DNA from: Hydrogenophilales bacterium 16-64-40
GTDB taxonomy: Bacteria; Pseudomonadota; Gammaproteobacteria; Burkholderiales; Thiobacillaceae
Direction of reading: 5' to 3'
Assembly: GCA_002256995.1 (NCBI GenBank)
Contig: NCGX01000002.1
Coordinates: forward strand, 167,508 to 231,507
Length of the DNA: 64,000 nt
Made by a program: the position numbers and the translations under genes. Positions 14,750 through 63,640 of this stretch are shown one piece after another. The notes below the pieces were generated by a model. That model saw only the letters and a program-made list of their open reading frames with translations. It ran no database searches and was not told the origin of the DNA. Numbering within the stretch: the first letter of the stretch is position 1; each line of letters starts with the position of its first letter.

Positions 14750-14797
14750 TGTCGTATTTTTGCGACACGCAAATCGCACTCCGGCATGTATTTTGCA
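14750..14797 (+). promoter_or_regulatory. TGTC-N10-GACA dyad and sigma-54-like promoter before OmpA paralog 2
   Basis: TGTC (14750-14753) and GACA (14764-14767) with a 10-base gap match the enterobacterial GlrR operator exactly; the dyad extends to GTGTCG/CGACAC. Fifteen bases further, CGGCATG-tatt-TTGCA (14782-14797) has the GG-N10-GC spacing of a sigma-54 promoter, with a perfect -12 element and 5 of 7 matches at -24. The dyad is closer to -24 than usual for an enhancer site, so the assignment is tentative. Confidence 0.4.
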
Positions 14798-15790: not shown

Positions 15791-17167
15791 ATGCATTCCA
15801 TGCTTGAAATCCTGATACTCGCTGCGGGCAAGGGCACCCGCATGCGCTCCGACCTGCCCAAGGTGCTGCACAAGCTGGCGGGCAAGCCCCTGCTCGGGCA
15901 TGTGGTGGACACGGCCCACCAACTCGGCGCGGCGCAGGTTTGCGTGGTGTATGGGTTTGGTGGTGAGGCCGTGCCGCGGTCGATGGCTGACGACAAGCTG
16001 ACGTTTGTGCTTCAGGCCGAACAGCACGGCACCGGCCATGCGGTGAAACAGGCGCTGCCGCAGCTGGCAAACGACAGTGTGACGCTCGTGCTCTATGGCG
16101 ACGTGCCGCTGACCCATGCGGCCACCCTGCAGCCGCTGGTGGCGGCCGCGCAGGCGGGCAAGCTGGGGCTGCTGACGGTGAGTCTGGCGCAGCCCGACGG
16201 CTACGGCCGCATCGTGCGCGAAAATGGCAAGGTCACCTGCATCGTCGAGCATAAGGATGCGTCGCCCGCCGAGCGCGCCATTCGTGAAGTCAACACCGGC
16301 ATCCTGGCGGTCGCGACCCGTCAACTTAAACGTTGGATAGACGAGCTGAAAAACGAGAACGCGCAGGGCGAGTACTACCTCACCGACATCATCGCGCTGG
16401 CAGTGCGCGACGGGGTCGAGGTGGACACTTACCAGCCGGCATTCGAGTGGGAAGTGCTGGGCATCAACAGCAAGGCGCAGCTCGCCCAGCTCGAGCGCGT
16501 CCATCAGGGCGAGATCGCGCAGGCGCTGCTCGACGCCGGCGTGACCCTGATGGATCCAGCACGGCTCGACGTGCGCGGCACGCTGACGTGTGGGCGCGAC
16601 GTCGTCATCGACGTCAACTGCGTGTTCGAAGGCCGGGTTGAATTGGGCGATGACGTGCAAGTGGGCGCCAACTGCGTGCTGCGCAACGTGACCGTGGCGA
16701 CGGGCACGCGCATCGACGCCTTCACCCTGATCGACGATGCGGCCATCGGCGAAGCCAACCGGCTCGGGCCGTTCTCGCGCATCCGCCCCGGGACCACGCT
16801 GGCGCGACACGTGCATGTCGGCAACTTCGTCGAGATCAAGAACAGCCAGATCGACGACGGCTCCAAGATCAATCACCTGTCCTATGTCGGCGACACCACC
16901 ATGGGCAAGCAGGTCAACATCGGCGCCGGCACCATTACCTGCAATTACGATGGCGCCAACAAGCACCGCACGGTGATCGAGGACGACGTGTTCGTCGGCT
17001 CCGACACCCAGCTGGTGGCGCCGGTCACCGTCGGCCGCGGCGCCACCCTGGGCGCCGGCACCACGCTGACGAAAGATGCGCCCGCAGGCGAACTCACCCT
17101 GTCGCGGGCGAAACAGCTCACCCTCAACGGCTGGAAGCGGCCGGTCAAACAGAAAAAGGAAGGCTAA
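15791..17167 (+). CDS. glmU: Bifunctional N-acetylglucosamine-1-phosphate uridyltransferase / glucosamine-1-phosphate acetyltransferase
   Basis: GlmU makes UDP-GlcNAc for peptidoglycan and LPS: the C-terminal half acetylates GlcN-1-P and the N-terminal half adds UMP. The N-terminus has the nucleotidyltransferase motif LAAGKGTRM and [18 protein letters not shown]. The C-terminal left-handed beta-helix begins near residue 250 and holds the [16 protein letters not shown] and [17 protein letters not shown] active-site segments. The call uses the ATG at 15791 (458 residues); the ATG at 15800 would give 455, closer to family length. Neither has a clear ribosome binding site. It is 2 bases from glmS, so both steps of amino-sugar synthesis are co-transcribed. 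Confidence 0.96.
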
Positions 17168-37038: not shown

Positions 37039-37314
37039 TTAGGCGCTCGGCTTGCCCAGCTTGGCAAACTCAACTTGGCTCAGGCCCTTGTCCTGGTCGG
37101 CGTCGAGTTTGGTAAAGATCTGGTCATCTCCGCCCTGAGCCTTGAATTCCGCCAGGCTGATTTTGCCGTCGCCATTGCTGTCGACGCTTTGGAAGCTGGG
37201 GGCACCCGGGGCGGGGGCGGCCTCGGGCATGGGCTCGGCCAAGGCAGACGCCGAGGCGGCGCCCAGCAGGCCAGCGAGGGTGAGGGTCAGCAAGCGGGGG
37301 TGGATGGATTTCAT
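37039..37314 (-). CDS. Periplasmic EF-hand protein, copy 1
   Basis: The 91-residue product has a signal peptide (MKSIHPRLLTLTLAGLLGAASASALA) and a short Pro/Ala linker. Two EF-hand loops follow: DSNGDGKISLAE, which is canonical with Asp1, Asn3, Asp5 and Glu12, and DADQDKGLSQVE, which keeps Asp1, Asp3, Asp5 and Glu12 but has Lys instead of Gly at position 6. It should bind Ca2+ in the periplasm. It is the last of three tandem paralogs read from right to left. A related leader sequence (GGCTCCTATCGATGTAGTGGTTCAAC on the plus strand, given in part) precedes copies 1 and 2. Confidence 0.87.
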   Translation of the reverse strand: MKSIHPRLLTLTLAGLLGAASASALAEPMPEAAPAPGAPSFQSVDSNGDGKISLAEFKAQGGDDQIFTKLDADQDKGLSQVEFAKLGKPSA

Positions 37315-37363: not shown

Positions 37364-37648
37364 TCAGTAGGGCTTGGTGCCGGACTTGCCTAGCTTGGCG
37401 AATTCGTCCTTGCTCAGGCCCTTGTCCTGGTCGGTGTCGAGTTTGGTGAAGCTCTGCTCGCTTTCGCCCTGAGCCTTGAATTCCGTCAAGCTGATTTTGC
37501 CGTCCTGGTTGCTGTCGACGCTTTGGAAGCTGGGTGAGCCCGTGGCCGGGGCGGCCTCGGGCATGGGCTGGGCCAGGACAGACGCCGAGGCGGCGCCCAG
37601 CAGGCCAGCGAGGGTGAGGGTCAGTAGGCGGGGTTGTATGGATTTCAT
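37364..37648 (-). CDS. Periplasmic EF-hand protein, copy 2
   Basis: The 94-residue product has the same signal peptide type (MKSIQPRLLTLTLAGLLGAASASVLA). Its EF-hand loops are DSNQDGKISLTE and DTDQDKGLSKDE. It ends in KSGTKPY rather than the KPSA of copy 1. It is 49 bases upstream of copy 1. Protein and DNA identity with copy 1 is very high over the signal peptide and first EF-hand, indicating recent tandem duplication. Confidence 0.87.
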   Translation of the reverse strand: MKSIQPRLLTLTLAGLLGAASASVLAQPMPEAAPATGSPSFQSVDSNQDGKISLTEFKAQGESEQSFTKLDTDQDKGLSKDEFAKLGKSGTKPY

Positions 37649-37723: not shown

Positions 37724-38008
37724 TTAACCGAGCTTGGCGAATTCGTCCTGGCTCAGGGACTTGTCCTGGTTGGCGTCGATTTGGGCGAAGACCTGCTCGT
37801 TTCCGCCCAGCGCCTTGAATTCCGCCAGGCTGATCTTGCCGTCCTTATTGCTGTCCACGCTTTGGAAGCTGGGGGCACCCGAGGCAGGGGCGGGGGCGGA
37901 GACTGCCGGGGCAGCTTCGGCCGTGGGCTGGGCCAGGACAGAAGCCGAGGCGGCGCTCAGCAGGCCGGCAAGCGTAAGGGTCAGAAAGTTGGGGTGAATG
38001 GATTTCAT
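37724..38008 (-). CDS. Periplasmic EF-hand protein, copy 3 (first in operon)
   Basis: The 94-residue product has signal peptide MKSIHPNFLTLTLAGLLSAASASVLA. Its linker is longer, and its EF-hand loops are DSNKDGKISLAE and DANQDKSLSQDE. AAGGAGCTGAAC before the ATG gives a good ribosome binding site. It is the promoter-proximal copy. A sigma-54-like promoter lies 55-70 bases upstream and two GlrR-type dyads lie further upstream, so all three copies may be under GlrKR control. Confidence 0.88.
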   Translation of the reverse strand: MKSIHPNFLTLTLAGLLSAASASVLAQPTAEAAPAVSAPAPASGAPSFQSVDSNKDGKISLAEFKALGGNEQVFAQIDANQDKSLSQDEFAKLG

Positions 38009-38062
38009 GTTCAGCTCCTTAATGGTTGAATGACGAATGCAGATGCACTCGAGGAGGGGTAT

Positions 38063-38078
38063 AGCGACGACCGTGCCA
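38063..38078 (-). promoter_or_regulatory. Sigma-54-like promoter of the EF-hand genes
   Basis: Read on the minus strand, the sequence is TGGCACG-gtcg-TCGCT. The -24 element is perfect, the -12 element differs from TTGCT at one base, and the GG and GC dinucleotides are exactly 10 bases apart, as sigma-54 requires. A start site about 12 bases on would give a leader of about 45 bases before copy 3. Confidence 0.65.
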
Positions 38079-38162
38079 GCTCTGTTTTTTCCAATAAAAA
38101 CAATAGGATGGATAATTCTTACGGGACGGGGTGCGGACTTGCGTCCGCTTGGGCGGGCGATA

Positions 38163-38180
38163 TGTCGCCTGTCGGCGACG
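38163..38180. promoter_or_regulatory. GlrR-type operator (TGTC-N10-GACG)
   Basis: TGTC-gcctgtcggc-GACG matches the enterobacterial GlrR operator TGTC-N10-GACA at 7 of 8 positions. It lies 85-102 bases upstream of the -24 element at 38078, a normal distance for a sigma-54 enhancer site. Confidence 0.55.
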
Positions 38181-38225
38181 GATCCGGATGGGCTTTGTTA
38201 GGCAGTTGTTCTGATTGAATTATTT

Positions 38226-38243
38226 TGTCGGCCATCGGCGACA
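38226..38243. promoter_or_regulatory. GlrR-type operator (TGTC-N10-GACA)
   Basis: TGTC-ggccatcggc-GACA is a perfect match to the GlrR operator. Its inner bases resemble those of the site at 38163 (both end TCGGC before GAC). It lies about 150 bases upstream of the EF-hand promoter. Confidence 0.6.
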
Positions 38244-38263
38244 GCTACGGAAAATAGGCAATC

Positions 38264-38290
38264 AAAAAGGGGAGGCAAGCCTCCCCTTTT
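38264..38290. terminator. Bidirectional intrinsic terminator
   Basis: AAAAAGGGGAGG and CCTCCCCTTTT pair around CAAG. On the minus strand it ends the DUF1328 gene transcript, 17 bases after the stop. Apart from this and the regulatory sites listed, the gap 38009-38306 shows no gene. Confidence 0.92.
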
Positions 38291-38306
38291 CTGTGCACCG
38301 GGCGTA

Positions 38307-38474
38307 TTACAGGGCTGGCGGGCGGCGGCCCGAGACCAGCAGCGCCAGAAATACCACCAGGCCGACGACGAACAGCACTTTGGCGATCCAGGCAGCGGTG
38401 CCCGCCAGCCCGGCAAAACCGAAAATGCCGGCGATGATTGCAACGATCAGAAACGTAACGGCCCATCCAAACAT
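38307..38474 (-). CDS. DUF1328 small membrane protein (YtjA-like)
   Basis: From the ATG at 38474 (GAGGAGAAC upstream) the product is 55 residues with two membrane helices: [49 protein letters not shown], given here by its start and end motifs [15 protein letters not shown] and [12 protein letters not shown]. The sequence is typical of DUF1328, whose members are often induced by envelope or general stress. A sigma-54-like promoter and a GlrR-type dyad lie upstream, next to glrR. Confidence 0.92.
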
Positions 38475-38527
38475 GGTGTTCTCCTCTTGGGGTTGATAAG
38501 CGCGCCAAAAGGCGGTATCTCTCCTAA

Positions 38528-38543
38528 AGCAGAGGCCGTGCCA
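38528..38543 (-). promoter_or_regulatory. Sigma-54-like promoter of the DUF1328 gene
   Basis: On the minus strand the sequence is TGGCACG-gcct-CTGCT. The -24 element is perfect, the -12 element has one mismatch (CTGC for TTGC), and GG-N10-GC spacing is exact. The expected start site is about 43 bases before the ATG at 38474, nearly the same leader length as for the EF-hand promoter. Confidence 0.65.
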
Positions 38544-38616
38544 ATCCATAAACGTGTTTTAAATCAAGCTGATGTCGTGATGGCACGGGAATCGGCTGCC
38601 TGCACGATAGGGAAGG

Positions 38617-38634
38617 CGTCGCTGATGCCTGACA
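38617..38634. promoter_or_regulatory. GlrR-type operator (CGTC-N10-GACA)
   Basis: CGTC-gctgatgcct-GACA matches the GlrR operator at 7 of 8 positions. It lies directly after the glrR stop codon and 74-91 bases upstream of the -24 element at 38543, the classic enhancer distance. Confidence 0.5.
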
Positions 38635-38635
38635 C

Positions 38636-39985
38636 TCATGCGTCGTCGCGGTCCTTGAACAGCGCGGGGGTGAGGCCATGGCGCTGGAGCAGCCGGTATA
38701 CCTCGGTGCGGTTGCGACCGGCCAGCCGCGCCACTTCGCTGACCTGGCCGCGGGTCAGCTTCAGCAGCGAAATCAGGTAATCGCGCTCGAACGTCGAGCG
38801 TGCTTCGGCCAGTGGCTGGATCTCGGCCGGCTTGTCGCGCAGGGCGCGCGCCACCAGGCTGGCCGGGATGGTCGAGGTGGTGCACAGCGCGACGCATTGC
38901 TCCAGCACGTTGTGCAACTGGCGGATGTTGCCCGGCCAGTCGGCCGCCGTCAGCATGTCGAGCGCGTCTGGCGCAAAGCCGTGGATGCGGCGGCGGTATT
39001 TTTCCGTCAGCACCGTCAGGAAATGCCGCGCCAGCAGCGGGATGTCCTCGCGCCGCTCGCGCAAGGGCGGCAGCGTCAGGGTGACAACGTTGAGGCGGTA
39101 ATACAGGTCTTCGCGGAATTCGCCGCTGGCGATCGCCTCCTCCAGATTGCAGTGGGTGGCCGACAAAATGCGTACGTCGACGGGCCGTGTTTCGGTCGCG
39201 CCGACCGGCCGAACTTCGCCTTCCTGCAGCACGCGCAACAGCTTGACCTGCAGCTGCGCGGGCATGTCGCCGATCTCGTCAAGCAGCACGGTGCCGCCCT
39301 CGGCGCTCAGGAACAGGCCGAGGTGGTCGCGCGCCGCGCCGGTGAAGGCGCCCTTCACATGGCCGAACAGTTCCGATTCGAGCAGTTCGGCCGGAATCGC
39401 GCCACAGTTGATCGCGACGAAGGGCTTGCCGTGACGCGGGCTGGCGCGATGAATGGCGCGTGCCAGCAGTTCCTTGCCGGTGCCCGACTCCCCTTGGATC
39501 AACACCGACGCATCGCTTTGCGCGGCCAGCCGGGCTTCGGCCAGCAGCACGTCCATTGCCGGGCAGGCCGTGATGATCTCGCTGCGCCAGCTGTCGCTGC
39601 CGGCTTCGGCGCTGCTGCCCGTCAGGCGGGTGGCGCGCTTCAGCAGACTGATCAGGGTGGCGGCGTCATAGGGCTTGGTGAGGTAGCCGAACAGCCCTTG
39701 CTGAGTGGCGGCCACCGCGTCCGGAATGGTGCCGTGTGCGGTCAGCACGATCACCGGCAACGCCGGGTCGCGCGCATGGATGGCGCGAAACAGCGCCATG
39801 CCGTCCATGCCATCCATCTGCATGTCGGTCAGCACGGCTTCGGGGCGCGCCAGCGCCAACTGCGTTAGCGCGGCTTCGCCGCTGTCGACCGCTTCGACCC
39901 TGAAGCCATTGGCCTCCAGCCGCAGCGTGATCAACTCGCGCAGCGACGCATCGTCGTCGACCACTAGGATGCAGGGTTTTTTCAT
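38636..39985 (-). CDS. glrR: Sigma-54-dependent response regulator GlrR (QseF)
   Basis: The 449-residue activator has a receiver domain (acidic VVDDD at 8-12, phospho-acceptor Asp54). The AAA+ sigma-54 interaction domain has Walker A GESGTGKE at 165-172, the sigma-54-contacting loop GAFTGA at 212-217 and LLDEIGDMP. A C-terminal Fis-type HTH follows (GQVSEVARLAGRNRTEVYRLLQRHGL). The neighbours QseG-like lipoprotein and kinase GlrK, in the order glrK-qseG-glrR, identify it. In enterobacteria it drives glmY through TGTC-N10-GACA sites; here matching sites flank the gene. It overlaps the lipoprotein gene by 4 bases. Confidence 0.92.
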   Translation of the reverse strand: MKKPCILVVDDDASLRELITLRLEANGFRVEAVDSGEAALTQLALARPEAVLTDMQMDGMDGMALFRAIHARDPALPVIVLTAHGTIPDAVAATQQGLFGYLTKPYDAATLISLLKRATRLTGSSAEAGSDSWRSEIITACPAMDVLLAEARLAAQSDASVLIQGESGTGKELLARAIHRASPRHGKPFVAINCGAIPAELLESELFGHVKGAFTGAARDHLGLFLSAEGGTVLLDEIGDMPAQLQVKLLRVLQEGEVRPVGATETRPVDVRILSATHCNLEEAIASGEFREDLYYRLNVVTLTLPPLRERREDIPLLARHFLTVLTEKYRRRIHGFAPDALDMLTAADWPGNIRQLHNVLEQCVALCTTSTIPASLVARALRDKPAEIQPLAEARSTFERDYLISLLKLTRGQVSEVARLAGRNRTEVYRLLQRHGLTPALFKDRDDA

Positions 39986-40461
39986 GGTGTCTTGTCGGGG
40001 ATGTTGCGCTGTTGCAGCGATTTTTCCAGCGCCTTGATCTGGTCGAGCTTGTCCTGCAATTCCTGCGTGCGCGCGGTCTGCTGCTTGAGTTCGATACGCG
40101 CCTTGAGCGACTTTTTCATCAGTTCGGCCAACGGTTGTGCGCGGGGATTGAGGTCGGTGATCGCCCCCAGTGTCTTCAGGCTGCGTTCGAGCGCCTCCAC
40201 GCTGTCCTCGCGCTCCAGCAGGGCGGCCAACTGAAAACGCCGGGCGTCGTCGAGGCGGCGCTCGCCCTCCAGCCCGGCCAGTTCACGGCGCCGCTGTTCG
40301 GGCGACAGCGATGCCACCCGCGACAACTCCCTCAGCAGCGCTGTGGCGCCCAGTCTGGCGGTGGTTGTCGCAGTGATAGCCGCTGGCGGGCGCTCGGGCA
40401 CGGCGGCACAGCCGCCCAGCATCAGCATCAGCCCGGCAAGAAAGGTGGATTTGAACGTCAT
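39982..40461 (-). CDS. qseG: QseG-like outer-membrane lipoprotein
   Basis: The 159-residue product has a lipoprotein signal (MTFKSTFLAGLMLMLGGC, lipid-modified Cys18). A helical domain follows with an N-terminal part TALLRELSRVASLSPEQRRREL and a coiled coil near the end (TARTQELQDKLDQIKALEKSLQQR). Position 2, between glrK and glrR, matches QseG/YfhG, which in enterobacteria interacts with the kinase QseE/GlrK and is needed for its activity. Similarity in sequence is modest, so the name rests largely on gene order, lipobox and coiled coil. Confidence 0.8.
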   Translation of the reverse strand: MTFKSTFLAGLMLMLGGCAAVPERPPAAITATTTARLGATALLRELSRVASLSPEQRRRELAGLEGERRLDDARRFQLAALLEREDSVEALERSLKTLGAITDLNPRAQPLAELMKKSLKARIELKQQTARTQELQDKLDQIKALEKSLQQRNIPDKTP

Positions 40462-40477
40462 TGCGGCATCGGACAGC

Positions 40478-41926
40478 TTAAACAGGCCAGGTTAAACGAA
40501 AACAGGTCGACCACGGCGGGCAATCGACCACCTCGACGCTGCCGCCCGCAGCCAGCATCGATTCGCGCACGATCGACAAGCCCAGTCCGCTGCCCTTGAC
40601 CGTGCTGGCGGGCTGGCGCGCGCCCTGGAAAAACGGCTCGAAGACGCGGCTGCGCTCGGCTTCGGGGATGCCTTCGCCCTGGTCGCACACCCACAGTGCG
40701 ACTGCGTCGTCGAGCGGCTCGCTCTTCACCAGGATGCGCCCTCCCTCGGGACTGAATTTGATCGCATTGGACAGCAGGTTGTCCAGCACGGTTTCGAGCT
40801 GGCTGCGATCGCAGTGCACGGTGGGGGCATCCAGCTGCGTCTCGACCTGAAAGCCGCGCGCGTCGAGTGCCAGCCGTTGTCGCGCCAGCGCGCCGGCGAG
40901 CACGTCTGCCAACGCGTGCTCGCTGGCGGGCCGCAGGGTGGCGTCGCGCATCATGCCGCTGTAACGGATCAGGTCTTCGATGCGTTTTTGCAGGTCGCGG
41001 CTGGCGCTGTCCATGATGGCGACAATGCTGCGCTGGCGCGCGTTGAGGCTGCCCGCCAGCTCGTCGTCCAGCAGCGCGACGCCTTCGCGCAGAGACGCCA
41101 GCGGCGTTTTCAGTTCGTGCGACACGTGGCGCAAAAAGCGCAGCTTCTGGTCCTCCAGCGCCTGCAGACGCTGGCGCAGCCAGTCGATTTCACGCCCCAG
41201 CTCGACGATGTCCTGCGGTCCGCTGATCGCCCGCAGCGGTCGCAAGTCGGCCTGGCCGAGCTGCTGGATCGAGGCCTTGAGCTGCTTGATCGGGCGGTTG
41301 ATCATCCAGGAAAACACCGCAGCCAGAAGCAGCGTCAGCGGAATCAGCGCCAGCGCCAGCACGATCAGCCGCTGGCGGGTGGCCTGCACGGTCGCTTCCA
41401 GCGCCTGCAATTCGCTTTGCACCGCGGCGTCGGCTTCGGCGAGCAGAGCACGGGTATCGACATGCAGCGCGTCGAACGAAGGCTCGAGCGCATTGAAGCG
41501 TTCGCTGTCGAGAAATGCGCCGGGTTGCAGCTGGCGGTACAGCGCGCGGCTGCGTGTGCCGAGCGCGGCCAGCGTGGCGCGTGCCGGCGCGTCGACGAGT
41601 TCGCCGTCGAGTTGCGCCAGCAGGGTTTGCAGTTCGCCGTAGCGGGTCCGCAGGGCGGGCGCAAATTCGGCGTCCTGCAACAGATGGTACTGCCCGGCAG
41701 TGCGCTGCAACTGGCTCACCGATTCGGCGATCTGCCGCACGTCGCGCGTGACGGCGAGGCTACTGCGGGTGAACTGGCGCTGGGTGTCGGCGACGCCCTG
41801 CAGCACGTGCACCGCGTTGATCAGGCCGCTCGCCAGCGGCACGATCAGCACGCCCATGGCGACGATGACGAGAATGGTGAAGGAACGCGGGTAATAAGGT
41901 CCGGAAAGCATGGGGGTGGGTGGCAA
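40478..41926 (-). CDS. glrK: Sensor histidine kinase GlrK (QseE)
   Basis: The 482-residue inner-membrane kinase has one helix at about 17-37 and a long helical periplasmic sensor (about 40-185). A second helix (LIVLALALIPLTLLLAAVFSWMI) is followed by HAMP, HisKA with phospho-acceptor His270 in LRHVSHELKTPLASL, and HATPase with LDNLLSNAIKFSPEGG and GSGLGLSIV. The sensor is of the four-helix type found in QseE. It is the first gene of the glrK-qseG-glrR operon, 16 bases before the lipoprotein gene. Confidence 0.9.
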   Translation of the reverse strand: MPPTPMLSGPYYPRSFTILVIVAMGVLIVPLASGLINAVHVLQGVADTQRQFTRSSLAVTRDVRQIAESVSQLQRTAGQYHLLQDAEFAPALRTRYGELQTLLAQLDGELVDAPARATLAALGTRSRALYRQLQPGAFLDSERFNALEPSFDALHVDTRALLAEADAAVQSELQALEATVQATRQRLIVLALALIPLTLLLAAVFSWMINRPIKQLKASIQQLGQADLRPLRAISGPQDIVELGREIDWLRQRLQALEDQKLRFLRHVSHELKTPLASLREGVALLDDELAGSLNARQRSIVAIMDSASRDLQKRIEDLIRYSGMMRDATLRPASEHALADVLAGALARQRLALDARGFQVETQLDAPTVHCDRSQLETVLDNLLSNAIKFSPEGGRILVKSEPLDDAVALWVCDQGEGIPEAERSRVFEPFFQGARQPASTVKGSGLGLSIVRESMLAAGGSVEVVDCPPWSTCFRLTWPV

Positions 41927-51418: not shown

Positions 51419-51494
<76 letters not shown>

Positions 51495-62582: not shown

Positions 62583-62593
62583 GAAAAGAAGGG

Positions 62594-62778
62594 TTCCCCG
62601 CCTGTGCCGTGCTGGCCGCTGACTCTTGAACCTGGGTCCAAGACGGCCGCGCTCAAAGACGCTTTGGGCACATGAAACGTGTCACGCGCACACCCGCATC
62701 GGAATAGATCGCAGCCTTGCACGTATGCATTGGTTCAGAGAAATAGCAACCAGCCTCGAACACCGCAGGGAACAACGC
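62594..62778 (-). ncRNA. ssrS: 6S RNA
   Basis: The gap between zapA and the 5-FCL gene, on the same strand, is the conserved position of 6S RNA. On the minus strand it begins near GTTCCCTGCGGTGTTCG and ends near CAGCACGGCACAGGCGGGG. CCCTGCGGTGT and GCACAGGCGGGG form the closing stem, and the middle is a large open region flanked by GC-rich arms (GTGCGCGTGACACG). 6S RNA mimics an open promoter and sequesters sigma-70 RNA polymerase in stationary phase. Ends are estimated to within about 5-10 bases. Confidence 0.85.
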
Positions 62779-63282: not shown

Positions 63283-63371
63283 GGCGGGACTATAGGGGGC
63301 GATGTGCGGGCGGTCAATCGGTCGCCAAGGCGCGCGCACGCGGCGCCTGCAGCTTATTTGTGCCCTCTGGG

Positions 63372-63377
63372 TATAAT
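63372..63377 (+). promoter_or_regulatory. -10 hexamer before the cobalamin riboswitch
   Basis: A perfect TATAAT lies 8 bases before the first paired base of the riboswitch. No convincing -35 hexamer is present 16-18 bases upstream. Confidence 0.6.
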
Positions 63378-63384
63378 GCGCGGC

Positions 63385-63562
63385 TTCAGGTGCCGACGCG
63401 GCTTTCCGCCGCCGAGGATAAACGGGAAACAGGTGCGTGGCTGCAAGCCATCATGCCTGTGCTGCCCCCGCAACGGTAAGCGCTAAACGGTCCATCACAC
63501 CGCCACTGGGTTCGCTCGGGAAGGCGATGGTCTTCAAGCGCGAGCCCGGATACCGGCCTGAA
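63385..63562 (+). promoter_or_regulatory. Cobalamin (AdoCbl) riboswitch
   Basis: The conserved blocks are present in order: GGGAAACAGGTG, the B12 box core GCTGCCCCCGCAACGGTAAG, CCACTGG, GGGAAGGCG and GCGAGCCCGGATACCGGCCTG. TTCAGG (63385-63390) pairs with CCTGAA (63557-63562) to close P1. Downstream, GCGGCG/CGCCGC (63571-63584) and GCGCC/GGCGC hairpins near 63599-63622 could mask the ribosome binding region. It should repress the TonB receptor gene when cobalamin is plentiful. The rest of the gap 63283-63640 holds nothing else recognisable. Confidence 0.96.
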
Positions 63563-63640
63563 CCCTGTCGCGGCGAACGCCGCGCAGCGGATCGTGCAAC
63601 GCGCCCGCGGGGAAGCAGGCGCCCAATTCGGAACTTCATC

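Follow-up and report, generated by a model that had tools for sequence, protein, structure and literature searches.

The window, the whole stretch of DNA analysed here, covers 64,000 nucleotides of contig C60 in a genome of 3.1 Mb. On its minus strand lie, in order, the genes for a sensor kinase, a small lipoprotein, the response regulator GlrR, a DUF1328 peptide and three EF-hand proteins. Among named genomes, the closest GlrR sequences are from a Thiobacillus MAG (92% identity) and T. thioparus DSM 505 (89%). The genome has one match to RpoN and 11 strong matches to sigma-54 activators. The features of the locus are as follows.

40478..41926, minus strand: glrK-like sensor kinase (Pfam HAMP, HisKA and HATPase; 32% identity to E. 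coli GlrK)
39982..40461, minus strand: small lipoprotein in the QseG position (ORF; lipobox LGGC by direct reading)
38636..39985, minus strand: glrR, sigma-54-dependent response regulator and proposed activator (Pfam receiver and Sigma54_activat; HTH in common with E. coli GlrR, 55% identity)
38617..38634, no strand: GlrR-type dyad (7/8) of the DUF1328 promoter (motif scan; dyad and promoter kept together in 15 of 20 loci)
38562..38574, plus strand: IHF-like box AATCAAGCTGATG (1 mismatch to the consensus used)
38529..38543, minus strand: DUF1328 -24/-12 promoter TGGCACGGCCTCTGC (direct reading and script)
38503..38514, minus strand: short hairpin CGCC-TTTT-GGCG near the predicted 5' end of the DUF1328 transcript (varies between species)
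38307..38474, minus strand: DUF1328 membrane peptide of 55 aa (Pfam PF07043, E 5.2e-14)
38265..38290, no strand: inverted repeat AAAAGGGGAGGC-AA-GCCTCCCCTTTT between the DUF1328 and EF-hand units (direct reading; absent from the scan output)
38226..38243, no strand: distal GlrR-type dyad (8/8) of the EF-hand promoter (motif scan, alignment)
38163..38180, no strand: proximal GlrR-type dyad (7/8) of the EF-hand promoter, 63 bp from the distal one (motif scan, alignment)
38064..38078, minus strand: EF-hand -24/-12 promoter TGGCACGGTCGTCGC (direct reading and script)
38034..38051, minus strand: conserved, hairpin-capable palindrome at the predicted 5' end of the EF-hand transcript (alignment)
37724..38008, minus strand: periplasmic EF-hand protein 1 (Pfam EF-hand; signal peptide by eye)
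37364..37648, minus strand: EF-hand protein 2 (Pfam EF-hand)
37039..37314, minus strand: EF-hand protein 3 (Pfam EF-hand)

The inverted repeat at 38265..38290 is a possible two-way terminator between the two units. Elsewhere in the window, Rfam matched a 6S RNA (62591-62774, minus strand), a cobalamin riboswitch (63371-63575, plus strand) and a tRNA (51422-51494, minus strand).

Promoters and dyads behind glrR

An earlier note on this DNA had proposed two -24/-12 promoters with leaders of about 44 bases, three dyads of the TGTC-N10-GACA type and an end of glrR at 38636, and each of these was located. Both promoters lie on the minus strand (38078-38064 and 38543-38529), with a TGGCAC-type -24 element and exact GG-N10-GC spacing, and an RpoN gene is present in the genome. 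With +1 placed 12 nt past the C of the -12 GC, the predicted 5' ends fall at 38052 for the EF-hand transcript and at about 38517 for the DUF1328 transcript; the predicted leaders are then 44 nt (ATG at 38008) and 43 nt (ATG at 38474), respectively. The dyads were found at 38226 (8/8), 38163 (7/8) and 38617 (7/8), a single arm base being changed in each 7/8 dyad, and glrR spans 38636-39985. The two EF-hand dyads stand 147 and 84 bp before the -24 box.

The note had also argued that a perfect dyad is expected only about once per 65 kb. This argument is weak alone: the window contains three perfect TGTC-N10-GACA dyads (the other two at 14750-14767 and 16878-16895), and a lone perfect dyad is therefore little proof. 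We searched 300 dinucleotide-preserving shuffles of the window for the pattern TGGCAY-N7-GC with upstream dyads. The promoter pattern by itself matched 11 times in the window, compared to a shuffled mean of 11.5. A promoter with at least two dyads was expected 0.007 times and observed once, and 2 of the 300 shuffles contained one. For a promoter with at least one dyad, the expectation was 0.57 and the observed number two, a number reached by 32 of 300 shuffles. The EF-hand site is unusual in the window alone, whereas the DUF1328 site stands out from chance only once conservation is added. Since a single-dyad promoter is not rare by chance, the verdict leans on the comparison across genomes.

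Conservation among Thiobacillus loci

We aligned 20 loci of the genus that span the end of glrR and the downstream DNA (the window genome and 19 relatives) and scanned them in the correct orientation. The earlier note had staked its reading on conservation of the dyads and -24/-12 elements in close relatives, and this expectation was borne out. The EF-hand promoter was present in all 20 loci, and the DUF1328 promoter with its dyad in 15, at near-constant spacing; it was missing only where the gene is missing beside glrR. Two EF-hand dyads of at least 7/8 were observed in 19/20 loci (G012 has one only), with centres 62-64 bp apart in those 19. From the end of the second dyad to the -24 box, the distance is 84-86 bp in 19/20 loci (74 in G004). 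A pattern search located an EF-hand loop behind the promoter in 19 loci, and a protein search did so in G008, the remaining one.

In the EF-hand alignment, identity was 0.947 in the dyad arms and 0.982 at the -24/-12 positions; it fell to 0.70 in the dyad cores and to 0.57-0.64 in the spacers. The motif columns were 0.96 identical versus 0.62 elsewhere, a value equalled by none of 20,000 random column sets. Chance matches combined with ordinary conservation among close relatives, with no functional promoters, would agree with the unremarkable number of TGGCAY-N7-GC matches in the window. However, conservation is much higher in the motif columns than in the spacers, and the same architecture recurs in other families; we consider such an origin hardly credible.

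The five loci without the DUF1328 promoter comprise G010, G014, G015 and G018, in which no DUF1328 match was found, and G019, whose copies lie on another contig. The DUF1328 site was accepted because it is conserved with its promoter in the loci that have the gene beside glrR. GlrR might instead control the EF-hand unit only, with DUF1328 expressed by readthrough from glrR or from another promoter and its dyad incidental. The chance expectation of 0.57 for such a composite would allow this, as would the genome-wide result: the pattern of one dyad plus promoter gave 113 hits in 25 genus genomes versus 132 in the reversed control, so it is unenriched and was dropped as evidence, and single-dyad sites rest on position and conservation. 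Some unlinked DUF1328 copies also carry perfect dyads that lack a -24/-12 element. Against this stands the retention of promoter and dyad in 15/15 loci with the adjoining gene and their absence from the other five, which makes control of the EF-hand unit only quite unlikely.

We examined 15 of 16 DUF1328 copies away from glrR, and none had a TGGCA-type promoter with dyads. Upstream of the unlinked copy, G012 and G021 have a TGGAATG element of lesser strength and, over 300 bp beyond it, a 7/8 dyad. Five of the 15 (L248, L260, L262, L263 and L264) have perfect dyads 150-165 bp upstream with no -24/-12 element; the dyad alone is therefore not specific, and the control is clean for the composite only. 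These five dyads are mostly of the form TGTCAG-N6-CTGACA and perhaps belong to another regulator.

G006 (99% complete), which has no GlrR ortholog, showed no DUF1328 match, no EF-hand match and no tandem site, and its sole bactofilin match is 81 residues long, with no promoter or paired dyads seen upstream. Co-loss in G006 was discarded as proof, since glrR, DUF1328 and the EF-hand genes are neighbours elsewhere and one deletion could explain it. In the incomplete assemblies G007 (82% complete) and G021 (79%), sites are present and no glrR ortholog was found. One draft genome carries two glrR-linked loci of the EF-hand/DUF1328 type (G001:C23 and G001:C50), reflecting either duplication or contamination.

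The leader of the EF-hand transcript contains a palindrome just past the predicted start, usually GAGTGC-N4-GCATTC, which is hairpin-capable in 19/20 loci (not in G012) and whose pairing is kept in 92% of alignment cells. It was rejected as a covarying RNA: the pairs are kept, but shuffles score equally and there is no excess covariation. The palindrome may be a hairpin that protects the mRNA 5' end or a DNA site.

Boxes were scored against what we take to be the IHF consensus. IHF-like boxes in the two promoter spacers of the genus loci had mean mismatches of 1.25 versus 2.6 and 1.33 versus 3.0 in mononucleotide shuffles, and the best boxes in the spacers of the window have 2 and 1 mismatches. 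Those between the two dyads were equally good (1.4 versus 2.7), and the placing of the IHF-like boxes is therefore not specific.

Identity of the regulator and its probable operator

Of the 11 activators of the genome, the window regulator matched E. coli GlrR best, at 55% identity and 479 bits; the runner-up reached 306 bits. The window regulator consists of a receiver domain, a sigma-54 AAA+ domain with GAFTGA and a Fis-type HTH, the last assigned from the alignment (Pfam reported none). The GlrR model was the best-scoring NCBIfam model, but at 581 bits it fell below the cut-off of 763; we therefore do not claim the formal equivalog label, and the ortholog status leans on the other criteria. 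The gene order kinase-lipoprotein-regulator is that of GlrKR (QseEF) operons. The lipoprotein showed no detectable similarity to QseG by BLASTP (E 0.61); its lipobox and position fit. The window regulator and E. coli GlrR have the recognition helix AGRNRTE[V/F]Y[R/K]LL in common, and the RNRT motif was absent from the other sigma-54 activator loci of the genome (17 match loci checked).

The published site of QseF/GlrR is TGTN12ACA, with three such sites at glmY, where IHF assists QseF in E. coli (accessible part of PMC6075780). Our scan of E. coli glmY found 8/8 dyads at distances of 185, 152 and 89 bp upstream of the -24 box, the last two 63 bp apart. The assignment of the dyads in the window to GlrR, made in the earlier note, is consistent with the published site and with the occurrence of the E. 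coli recognition helix in GlrR only among the activators of the genome. Both systems combine TGT-N12-ACA sites, including a pair 63 bp apart, with a -24/-12 promoter at a comparable distance, and both adjoin a kinase-lipoprotein-regulator operon; IHF is involved at glmY, and a role is proposed for it here. They differ in that glmY has three sites upstream of glrK and encodes a small RNA, whereas the sites here lie downstream of glrR and before protein genes. At Rfam gathering scores, GlmY was not found in the window, and among five sources only the E. coli control gave a match.

The sigma-54 promoters could be real and the dyads bound by another enhancer-binding protein such as PrsR, a separate protein in this genome and one of its 11 strong activators. 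The PrsK/PrsR regulon of PEP-CTERM genes also involves an NtrC-family response regulator, sites before -24/-12 promoters and surface-related targets, and PrsR sites likewise lie about 63 nt before the promoter (PMC1569441, accessible part). However, the 17-nt PrsR site published there ends in TTTACA, whereas our aligned promoters have GTCG..GACA blocks, and the recognition helix of PrsR differs too. Furthermore, the helix of E. coli GlrR occurs only in GlrR among the sigma-54 activator matches of the genome, and the sites track the presence of GlrR, often right behind glrR. Binding by another activator is therefore very unlikely, and GlrR remains our preferred candidate.

Occurrence across the order and a putative envelope regulon

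The order-wide sample comprised 160 genomes of at least 90% completeness, in 71 of which GlrR was called at E <=1e-120. The strict tandem pattern was found in 33 genomes, with 46 hits among the matches listed. It was present in 31/71 GlrR-positive versus 2/89 GlrR-negative genomes (Fisher p 2.8e-11, with relatedness ignored) and missing in 40/71 GlrR-positive genomes. The reversed control gave 0 hits in all 160 genomes; since the control rate of the looser pattern predicts a few reversed hits, we preferred the GlrR-negative genomes as the control. In the 25 genus genomes, that less strict tandem pattern yielded 59 hits versus 30 for its control, and in 16 other genomes both counts were 11; its total was disregarded, and it was used for its recurrence at matching orthologous positions. 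In 19 genomes, representing 10 families, glrR is followed on its own strand by a tandem site no more than 600 bp away.

We sought the first ORFs behind 37 sites (36 of the strict pattern and G040:C2 from the less strict one) and ran family searches on 11 products. EF-hand proteins were found behind tandem sites in G151 and G040, an EF-hand plus BON protein in G060, and BON proteins in G056 and G139; at loci L053, L055 and L362, a single protein encoded behind a GlrR-type promoter joins an EF-hand domain to a BON domain. Glycine-zipper proteins follow the site in G103, G032 and G035 (G059 by resemblance), and a bactofilin in G133 (G062 by resemblance). OpgH/MdoH, which functions in periplasmic glucan synthesis, follows it in five genomes, G102 and G110 by family model and G066, G105 and G177 by resemblance (loci L360:499-2301, L374:429-2282, L361, L383 and L384), and in G066 and G110 it stands directly behind glrR. 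The other first ORFs encode unrelated or unclear products. In one search, 3 of 10 sequences had no Pfam match: two incomplete OpgH pieces and one short protein.

Behind glrR, EF-hand genes with such a site were also observed in a Hydrogenophilales MAG, in Wenzhouxiangella and in an unclassified proteobacterium. Among 36 ortholog loci near glrKR, mostly gammaproteobacterial, 19 had the composite in varying strength and 16 lacked it; the remaining locus broke off ahead of the HTH. In four genomes of one family (L363, L364, L365 and L366), a short protein resembling a single membrane span and starting with MK(R/K)FD follows a tandem site directly behind glrR; the one searched had no Pfam match.

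The earlier note had called the regulon local. This description suits the glrR-linked part, but the restriction to the locus does not stand, as unlinked bactofilin genes have the same architecture. At all of the best 20 bactofilin loci of the genus (L301-L320), at least one dyad of at least 7/8 was found within 520 bp upstream, and 16 of these 20 have paired dyads 76-88 bp apart. The -24 element is of the TGGCA type in 9 and TGGCCC, TGGCTC or TGGAAC in 11, with the same GG-N10-GC spacing.

Taken together, the segment very probably carries two sigma-54 promoters that would be activated by the product of the adjoining glrR and would be part of a wider envelope regulon, a reading based on sequence comparison. 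GlrK, with the small lipoprotein as its partner, would phosphorylate GlrR on an envelope signal. GlrR would then bind one dyad at DUF1328 and two dyads 63 bp apart at the EF-hand genes, IHF could bend the spacer between dyads and promoter, and the AAA+ domain of GlrR would open the RNA polymerase held by RpoN at -24/-12. The genes switched on in this way would encode a small membrane peptide and three periplasmic EF-hand proteins, which probably serve to maintain the envelope.

The comparison suggests that the glrR locus is the linked part of a wider envelope regulon, which includes bactofilin genes elsewhere in the genus, and that the GlrKR pair widely controls cell-envelope genes. A broader proposal, for and against which we weigh the chances equally, is that GlrKR in Betaproteobacteria, perhaps ancestrally, governs a regulon of the periplasm and outer envelope (calcium-binding EF-hand and BON proteins, glycine-zipper proteins and OpgH/MdoH, in many cases encoded immediately behind glrR, and distant bactofilins), with GlmY a later target of the same circuit; the EF-hand outputs would hint at divalent-cation or osmotic periplasmic stress as the natural signal. 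What is known of GlrKR/QseEF mainly concerns virulence in enterobacteria and the activation of GlmY, a small RNA, and of rpoE. The comparison adds candidate protein-coding envelope targets in many betaproteobacterial families, which opens the older role of GlrKR to direct tests in harmless laboratory strains. It also offers a handle on little-understood envelope genes, namely those of periplasmic EF-hand and BON proteins, DUF1328 and bactofilins.

In the literature searched, which left most subscription journals outside, we met no envelope regulon of GlrR beyond the enterobacteria and no paper linking GlrR or QseF with EF-hand proteins; the matches listed contained none linking DUF1328 with RpoN, and combinations of EF-hand, sigma 54 and bactofilin gave no paper on GlrR, as judged by the listing. 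Control of the bacterial exterior by sigma-54 is, by its title, the theme of PMC3162934, which is similar in general; its accessible text lists a QseF-like activator class, and a text search of it gave no EF-hand, DUF1328 or OsmY. The kinase-lipoprotein-regulator cluster (qseEGF) has been described in Gamma- and Betaproteobacteria and Acidithiobacillia (PMC12691602), although that study, in its accessible part, concerns QseG-QseE activation and not targets outside enterobacteria. For Acidithiobacillia, sigma-54 systems with GlrR/GlrK and GlrR_2/QseE groups and predicted sites for some activators have been reported (PMC12194929). In the accessible part of that paper, the predicted sites are named for HupR, NtrC, NtrX and TspR, not GlrR, and its main text has no EF-hand.

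A third recurrent site (G000:C10 and the orthologous places) precedes different genes in different species. The class 'c' hits (G000:C64:240947, L165), found ahead of a formate dehydrogenase-like gene, were left out, since they probably belong to a nearby activator gene; G000:C64:240947 combines a -24/-12-like promoter and one dyad with another activator gene near it, and also occurs in G020. A recurrent tandem site was observed before differing genes at L163, L168, L169, L176, L177 and L212, and the membrane proteins of L168 and L212 are 43% identical between two families.
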